A stretch of DNA of 61,235 nucleotides from Clostridia bacterium. GTDB lineage: Bacteria; Bacillota; Clostridia; Oscillospirales; CAG-272. Shown piece after piece: positions 5,810-61,117 of the stretch. The stretch is taken from positions 1 through 61,235 of the forward strand of contig JAFWYJ010000054.1 of assembly GCA_017517745.1 (NCBI GenBank), written 5' to 3'. The stretch's first letter is position 1. The number at the start of each line of letters is the position of its first letter. The notes under the pieces are model-generated. The model made no database searches. It was not told the DNA's origin and was given only the letters and a program-made list of their open reading frames with translations. Position numbers and translations under genes: made by a program.

Positions 5810-5885
5810 GGTGGACCATCAAGGACTCGAACCTTGGACCGACCGGTTATGAGCCGGGAGCTCTGACCAACTGAGCTAATGGTCC
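5809..5885 (-). tRNA. tRNA with CAT anticodon (Met or Ile2)
   Basis: On the minus strand: acceptor GGACCAT/ATGGTCC, D-arm TTAGCTCAGTTGGTCAGAGC, anticodon arm CCGGCTCATAACCGG (anticodon CAT), T-arm AAGGTTCGAGTCCTT, encoded CCA. 77 nt. CAT is read as elongator Met, or as Ile (AUA) after lysidine modification; the GGACC...TTAGCTCAGTTGG type is common to both in Clostridia and I cannot decide between them. It is not the initiator, since the acceptor is fully paired. Confidence 0.93.
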
Positions 5886-46225: not shown

Positions 46226-46262
46226 AGGACGAAGAATTGTTAAAATTCCTCGTCCTTTTTAT
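46226..46262 (+). terminator. Terminator after the SLH gene
   Basis: aggacgaagaatt (46226-46238) with aattcctcgtcct (46244-46256), one G-U type mismatch, then ttttt. It overlaps the 3' end of the convergent small gene at 46240. Confidence 0.8.
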
Positions 46263-46470
46263 ATGACCGTCCAATACAAGCGTTATTCTCAACAATCGTT
46301 TCGTCTTTGTTTGCTTGATCAAATTCAGGAAAACAAAGCAAATAATGATCACATTCGTCGCAACAACACGCAAAGCCTTGCGCTCCGTTGCCAAGACAAA
46401 CGCCGGGCTTCCCGGGCGAAAATTCTGTGCCGGTGATATCCCTTATCCTTTTCGGAATGTTCTTACTCAT
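46240..46470 (-). CDS. Small Cys-rich protein (76 aa)
   Basis: Starts MSKNIPKRIRDITGTEFSPG at ATG 46470 with GGGGGAT 7 bases upstream; the longer frame upstream is not coding. The core is VCLGNGAQGFACCCDECDHY followed by LLCF: five cysteines with C-x11-CCC-x2-C and C spacing that could bind zinc or an iron-sulfur cluster. From memory, short proteins with CLGNG...CC-ECD-(Y/F)--CF occur widely in gut Clostridia without a known role. It lies directly downstream of the structured RNA at 46489-46675. Confidence 0.75.
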   Translation of the reverse strand: MSKNIPKRIRDITGTEFSPGKPGVCLGNGAQGFACCCDECDHYLLCFPEFDQANKDETIVENNACIGRSYKKDEEF

Positions 46471-46488
46471 ATATCCCCCTGTCAGCAT

Positions 46489-46675
46489 AAAAAAAGGTGC
46501 GCAACCGAAGCTACGCACCGAAAAACGTAGCTCCATGCCGCGACGCAAACTTTTTAACACTACCATATAACATGGAAAAGCATACAAAAAGGGAGCATAC
46601 ATTTTTGCCAAAAGGAAAAAAGTATACTTATCCCATGTTACCCCTGGTAGCGTTGTGTTATTCAGTTTACGTCGC
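46489..46675 (-). ncRNA. Candidate structured RNA (free sRNA or cis leader), unidentified
   Basis: From the expected start at 46675 the minus-strand RNA begins at the base of a 12-bp closing stem GCGACGUAAACU/AGUUUGCGUCGC (46675-46664 with 46551-46540, one U-G pair). Nested inside are AACA/UGUU, CUACCA/UGGUAG (46650-46645 with 46565-46560) and UAACAUGG/CCAUGUUA (46640-46633 with 46575-46568), then AAGUAUAC/GUAUGCUU and an apical region. A terminator follows: CGGUGCG...CGCACC (46519-46514 with 46501-46496) and seven U. A CGTAGCT/AGCTACG pairing (46526-46532 with 46509-46515) could compete with it. I recognise no riboswitch consensus. Confidence 0.6.
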
Positions 46676-46681
46676 AAGGAT

Positions 46682-46710
46682 ATTATACCACACTCTTGAT
46701 AACTTGTAAA
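46682..46710 (-). promoter_or_regulatory. Sigma-A promoter of the structured RNA
   Basis: Minus strand TTTACA (46710-46705), 17 bp, TATAAT (46687-46682). The start 6-7 bases on coincides with the base of the closing stem. Confidence 0.8.
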
Positions 46711-61030: not shown

Positions 61031-61117
61031 GCGGGTATGGCGGAATTGGCAGACGCGCTAGATTCAGGTTCTAGTGGGGGCAACTTCGTGGAGGTTCAAG
61101 TCCTCTTACCCGCACCA
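61031..61117 (+). tRNA. tRNA-Leu (CAG)
   Basis: Acceptor GCGGGTA/TACCCGC, D-loop TGGCGGAATTGGCAGACGC, anticodon arm CTAGA-TT-CAG-GT-TCTAG, long variable arm, T-arm GAGGTTCAAGTCCTC, encoded CCA. 87 nt. Reads CUG. Confidence 0.96.

Follow-up and report, generated by a model that had tools for sequence, protein, structure and literature searches.

The window analysed here, a stretch of 61,235 nucleotides from a Clostridia bacterium, carries on its minus strand a promoter, a long structured RNA and a terminator, all of them placed shortly before a gene for a small cysteine-rich protein. This arrangement raises the question whether the RNA acts on its own, whether it is a leader controlling the gene behind it or whether it is a repeat without any regulatory role, and to which class, if any, it belongs. 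As judged by sequence comparison, the element appears to be a cis-acting transcription-attenuating leader, a reading to which we assign a probability of roughly 80%, and this leader is best read as an undescribed, orphan riboswitch-like class. The features of the window element, together with the basis of each assignment, are the following:

46710-46705, minus strand: -35 box TTTACA (sequence)
46682..46710, minus strand: promoter with -35 TTTACA, a 17-nt spacer and an extended -10 (TGn TATAAT, 46687-46682) (sequence; register kept in relatives)
46664..46676, minus strand: 5′ strand of P1, beginning at the expected transcription start (fold; covariation)
46539..46551, minus strand: 3′ strand of P1 (covariation)
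46622..46654, minus strand: 5′ arm of the rod (P2), differing in sequence among copies with pairing retained (folds)
46556..46585, minus strand: 3′ arm of the rod (P2) (fold)
46616..46629, minus strand: strand a, partner of b (apical hairpin) or of c (rod extension) (covariation)
46592..46609, minus strand: strand b (GGCAAAAATGTATGCTCC), partner of a or d (b x d covariation)
46578..46590, minus strand: strand c, bearing a conserved U-tract, the 3′ part of the strand pairing with a (a x c covariation)
46518..46535, minus strand: strand d, partner of b or of the terminator 5′ strand (antiterminator) (strand swaps and covariation)
46507..46534, minus strand: antiterminator hairpin GGAGCTACG x CGTAGCTTC (covariation and sequence)
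46489..46519, minus strand: intrinsic terminator, hairpin 46519-46496 and T-run 46495-46489 (covariation, 100% of cells paired)
46475..46480, minus strand: ribosome-binding site AGGGGG (sequence)
46240..46470, minus strand: ORF of a 76-aa Cys-rich protein (sequence)

The stability of the RNA was assessed by folding. A segment of 199 nt reached -74.4 kcal/mol, compared with -46.5 kcal/mol (sd 3.7) for shuffled sequences, which corresponds to a z of -7.5 with none of 200 shuffles being as stable, and the fold without the terminator still gave a z of -6.1. These values confirm the long nested-stem RNA ending in a terminator, with a predicted terminated product of about 187 nt, that the original prediction had described, except that the closing stem P1 comprises 13 pairs, some of them G-U (46676-46664 with 46551-46539), and not 12; the rod adds further helices inward. 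Likewise, the promoter, the stems, the terminator and the 19-nt gap between the T-run and the downstream ATG at 46470 had all been recognized from the single sequence, whereas the antiterminator, the pairing of b with d and the existence of a repeat family had been missed. In the window copy the antiterminator (-15.7 kcal/mol) and the terminator (-16.8 kcal/mol) are nearly balanced.

A search of Rfam 15 over the window element yielded no match at the gathering score, neither to 6S RNA nor to any riboswitch model, and the weak matches obtained were at chance level (best E = 1). In scans of two sets of 20 loci from the own genome and relatives, all matches listed lay outside the elements. The earlier statement that the RNA fits no known riboswitch consensus is in line with this, as no Rfam match was found over any element tested, and known riboswitch classes were ruled out on the basis of the window element and the 40 loci scanned. 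The suggestion of a 6S RNA (RF00013) was not supported: length and rod shape are shared, but no 6S match occurs in the window and no Rfam match covers the window element, and the element, unlike 6S RNA, has many copies per genome and is a leader that includes an antiterminator. A separate sub-threshold 6S match was seen at the locus of one relative (L020), where it does not overlap the element. The only Rfam matches in the window at the gathering score are two tRNA genes, at 5812-5885 and 61031-61114. An original study has reportedly listed 224 candidate RNAs. Among the literature covered, which left most subscription journals outside its scope, no description was recognized as this RNA, and the main text of two articles (PMC11109978; PMC8632094) contains neither the word Ruminococc nor the word Clostridia. 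This probable RNA switch, with about a dozen copies in one genome, has apparently gone undescribed.

That the element is a member of a family became evident from a nucleotide search, which returned further copies in the own genome and matches in 33 of 60 genomes, the own genome included. A covariance model (R1), built from 18 elements, gave 14 rows in the own genome at E up to 0.1, namely 12 good copies (at least 50 bits), a degenerate one and an echo of the window copy on the antisense strand. The degenerate copy (L039:1501-1599, corresponding to G000:C33:8056-8154) has retained promoter-like sequence, the d strand and the terminator and has lost the rod. Antisense matches of the model in general were overlapping, lower-scoring echoes of the same copies and were dropped, by which 143 rows were reduced to 96 distinct elements. 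With the own genome included in each case, R1 matched 31 of 35 genomes of the genus (163 rows at E up to 0.001), 102 of 295 genomes of the order and 85 of 341 genomes of the class; in a draw of 348 genomes from the phylum the own genome alone matched, although a few genomes of the same order and class are among the non-matching ones listed. Since the order, phylum and class surveys used stricter filters and scored at most 9, 7 and 8 candidates per genome, respectively, copies and weak distant members are undercounted in these numbers. A closer search of eight chosen genomes gave 7, 10, 4, 16, 14, 27, 11 and 1 rows at E up to 1e-5. One exact pattern was additionally found in 58 stretches of named records (Clostridia, Oscillospiraceae, Ruminococcaceae, Monoglobus and others), many of them from gut or rumen samples. 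The elements come in two shapes, a shorter one represented by the window copy and a longer one of about 205-235 nt with an extra rod hairpin; judged by length, the latter is present in 10 of the 11 other good copies of the own genome.

The promoter could be compared in the 142 of 144 distinct elements that had enough upstream DNA. In 132 of these, exactly 5 nt separate the end of the best-scoring promoter from P1, as in the window, where 46676, the first base of P1 on the minus strand, lies 5 nt after the -10 box; this register agrees with the predicted coincidence of a consensus-spaced promoter's start with the base of the closing stem. The spacer measures 17 nt in 136 of 142 elements, with a score that favoured 17 by half a point per nucleotide, and TGn precedes the -10 box in 134 of 142. 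At least 9 of 12 consensus bases were present in 132 of 142 elements versus 15 of 142 shuffled upstream stretches. By these sequence comparisons the promoter is part of the unit, and because of the fixed register between the -10 box and P1, the first bases of P1 should also be the first to be transcribed, so that the RNA would have hardly any free 5′ tail or none. Such a start may serve the RNA or may just come with the unit being passed on as a whole.

Whether the helices are retained in relatives was examined in an alignment of 90 elements, in which all counts ignore relatedness. For P1, a x b and the terminator taken together, 95.9% of 3039 cells are paired, compared with 85.5% after shuffling and 30.6-54.7% in slid controls, and 26 of 35 pairs have changed on both sides, numbers that lean towards these helices because the alignment was fitted to them. 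The helices that the original prediction proposed to check in relatives are preserved through compensatory changes. P1 alone is paired in 98.4% of cells across the 90 elements, with 9 of 12 pairs changed on both sides. The alternative helices lay outside the model that made the alignment, their columns being picked by eye on the same alignment. For b x d (15 pairs), 94.0% of 1270 cells are paired (shuffled 90.6%, slid at most 56.6%) and 8 of 15 pairs have changed on both sides; for the antiterminator core (5 pairs), the values are 95.9% of 437 cells (shuffled 92.6%, slid at most 71.1%) and 3 of 5 pairs; and for a x c (8 pairs), 84.9% of 644 cells are paired (shuffled 75.6%, slid at most 59.6%). 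In each of the four helix sets none of 500 shuffles reached the observed percentage or the covariation score. The count of changes on both sides was reached by 1 of 500 shuffles for b x d, by 9 of 500 for the antiterminator core and by 32 of 500 for a x c.

An alignment-free test, in which the pairing of an element's own strands was compared with that of strands swapped between elements, pointed in the same direction. Own b-d and own d-terminator pairs were stronger on average than swapped ones, with none of 5000 permutations being as strong (93 of 96 elements, three dropped), and the same was found in the 37 of these 93 with the most diverged d strand and again among the 12 copies of the own genome, the own pair not being the strongest in every copy. 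These pairings are mutually exclusive, each strand having two competing partners: b and c for a, a and d for b, b and the terminator strand for d, and d and its partner in the terminator hairpin for the terminator strand. The conserved bases lie mostly within these switching helices and P1, and no invariant unpaired pocket of the kind found in many aptamers was seen in the aligned elements. As regards an aptamer joined to an expression platform, the coupling of b to d is conserved, with the conserved bases distributed as just stated. The U-tract of strand c (window 46586-46590, columns 254-257 of alignment A3) is conserved and has no Watson-Crick partner in the model; its participation in a triple helix is possible.

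The energies of the competing states were compared in 80 of the 90 elements, 10 being dropped for gaps. The single choices differ little in energy: for the part up to P1, the median is -41.3 kcal/mol when b is left free versus -43.0 kcal/mol when c is left free, and the medians of antiterminator and terminator are -15.0 and -16.3 kcal/mol. The whole OFF set lies below the whole ON set in all 80 elements, before any pseudoknot penalty, and does so by more than 10 kcal/mol in 65 of them. In a cruder cut, the antiterminator was weaker than the terminator by 5.2 kcal/mol (median of 144). Since the whole OFF set is lower in energy than the ON set, the leader is probably OFF by default according to these models.

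The position of the element relative to genes was counted for the 144 distinct elements. By a loose rule an ORF follows 140 of them and none follows the other four, and the median gap between element and start codon is 22 nt (134 elements with an ORF and no second copy). A strict gene-start rule, demanding a ribosome site, an ATG 5-45 nt past the end of the element and at least 30 codons, was passed by 75 and failed by 57 of 132 elements, after exclusion of 12 of the 144 for short flanks; the opposite-strand control on the 5′ side gave 3 of 132, and the mean over six such windows was 3.5. The comparison thus favours the suggestion, already made for the window copy, of a leader for the next gene: a terminator stands before a gene on the same strand in the 75 elements of the strict rule, and a conserved, covarying antiterminator is exclusive with this terminator. 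A different explanation would be a trans-acting terminated small RNA, either 6S-like or base-pairing, whose place before genes is incidental. The own promoter and terminator and the terminated product of the length given above would suit such an RNA, and b and d could pair between molecules as well; yet it appears improbable, given that the conserved antiterminator has no evident role in a stand-alone RNA, that a ribosome site and an ATG occur near the terminator so much more often than in the control, that within the own genome the b-d pairs of a copy exceed swapped ones in mean strength and that the window holds no 6S match.

In the window, the Cys-rich protein matched nothing in Pfam or NCBIfam at E up to 1. 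Three paralogs of its gene were found elsewhere in the genome, each likewise located behind a copy of the element (4 of 4 such genes). The Cys-rich gene was ruled out as an obligatory partner, as the genes behind the copies vary. Of 98 distinct ORFs within 45 nt behind an element, 51 were predicted to encode secreted proteins, membrane proteins or lipoproteins by a simple hydrophobicity rule that looks for a signal peptide, a membrane segment or a lipobox; among 272 other ORFs from these loci the number was 55 (Fisher p 9e-9). The selection of the two sets differed slightly, requiring 25 aa and accepting a weaker ribosome site for ORFs behind elements, and requiring 60 aa and a stronger site for the controls. 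Pfam scans at E up to 0.001 of these 98 ORFs, several of which are cut by the locus end, with those of the other 46 elements outside the scan, revealed BspA-type LRR (25), MazE/AbrB-type (4), zinc ribbon (4) and dockerin (3) domains. NCBIfam scans of the same set placed LRR adhesin-like models in 24 of 98 ORFs, with cut-offs unapplied. Matches to PHROGs of ORFs behind elements were mostly to LRR-like or tail-fibre-like repeats. As far as such predictions go, the genes behind the element are unrelated to one another and enriched for LRR surface proteins and lipoproteins.

Some observations concern the surroundings of the copies. A second copy follows the first in 7 of 144 elements (L013, L074, L093, L119, L137, L146, L165), as in tandem riboswitches, and 6 of 60 loci scanned (L010, L065, L130, L133, L135, L146) have tRNA genes 5′ of the element, four of them with tRNA-Thr. 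Compared with phage records, the window copy gave a single match, an unverified fecal phage scaffold (MT837627.1), which carries a full copy at L182:4111-4268 (115 bits). Behind this copy lie a ribosome site of the GGGGG type and a gene whose product, read from the sequence, resembles a zinc-ribbon protein; the scaffold may represent a phage, a prophage or bacterial contamination. Two narrow searches yielded no hit, one with a single exact pattern in viral_contigs (0 stretches) and one with a single relative's copy (L042) as query against plasmids. An element of phages or plasmids was rejected on these grounds. A mobile or repeat element that merely bears a promoter and a terminator, without regulatory role, would account for 4 to 27 copies in seven of the eight closely searched genomes (1 in the eighth), for the second copies, for the copy on the fecal scaffold and for the neighbouring tRNA genes. 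This explanation is nevertheless very unlikely, because the compensatory changes in the alternative helices, the fixed promoter register and the distance to the start codon argue for functional selection; the narrow viral_contigs and plasmid searches also speak against it.

For the attenuating leader, the helices, their mutual exclusion and their position before genes are well supported by the comparison of sequences; the order of switching events, the polarity and the action of a specific signal are inferred. RNA polymerase would begin at the base of P1, and strand a would pair first with b as an apical hairpin. Zipping of the rod would then enable c to displace b from a, and the freed b would capture d as soon as it emerges. 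With d held by b, the terminator would form and transcription would stop (OFF). Should a and b be kept together by a signal, a protein or a pause, the partner of d would be the 5′ half of the terminator; the antiterminator would then prevail and the gene about 20 nt downstream would be transcribed (ON).

Concerning the trigger, a direct ligand is possible. As no invariant unpaired pocket was seen and most of the conserved bases belong to P1 and the switching helices, a metabolite has no better claim to this role than a protein or a trigger of purely kinetic nature. A leader that depends on a protein or on the ribosome, with a trans factor on P1 or on the apical loop holding one of the two states, is a version of the leader reading, with odds that overlap with it, and seems quite conceivable, if short of an even chance. 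P1 is conserved both in sequence and in pairing, and no aptamer pocket is obvious. A P1 conserved in sequence is unusual for a plain riboswitch. Against this, the conservation of P1 could also stem from the start region close to the promoter. A more far-reaching version of the attenuating leader is a new riboswitch class that would respond to a general signal, perhaps a second messenger, and coordinate surface and adhesion genes of gut Clostridia, with the A-run of b being captured in turn by the U-runs of a and d and the U-tract of c taking part in a U-A-U triple helix in the OFF state; we regard this combination as tentative and rather doubtful.

Several known systems resemble the element in part. 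By analogy, the closest in use are the c-di-GMP riboswitches (classes I and II) of Clostridioides difficile, which are likewise multi-copy leaders before varied genes (adhesins, a metalloprotease, small proteins); the element is not a member by any test, as no such match occurs at the window element or over the elements in the 40 loci scanned. The own genome contains one match only to c-di-GMP-I (RF01051), located on another contig (G000:C30:10540-10627, L183) and apart from the element. T-box and amino-acid attenuators share the choice between terminator and antiterminator, but no T-box match was found at the window element. Closest in logic, again by analogy, are transcriptional riboswitches with internal strand displacement. 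As described in PMC10085676, alternative structures of ZTP (pfl)-type riboswitches compete by strand displacement and thereby decide on termination, a switching logic which these and other riboswitches of this kind have in common with the element. Here, too, membership is not indicated by any test, since Rfam gives no match and, in contrast to the ZTP type, the apical strand of the element captures the antiterminator strand itself.

If this reading is correct, the element would define a regulatory RNA class that is widespread in a large set of gut Clostridia known largely from uncultured assemblies and that reaches 27 copies in one closely searched genome. It may thereby offer a handle on the control of surface proteins, lipoproteins and many genes of unknown function in these organisms.
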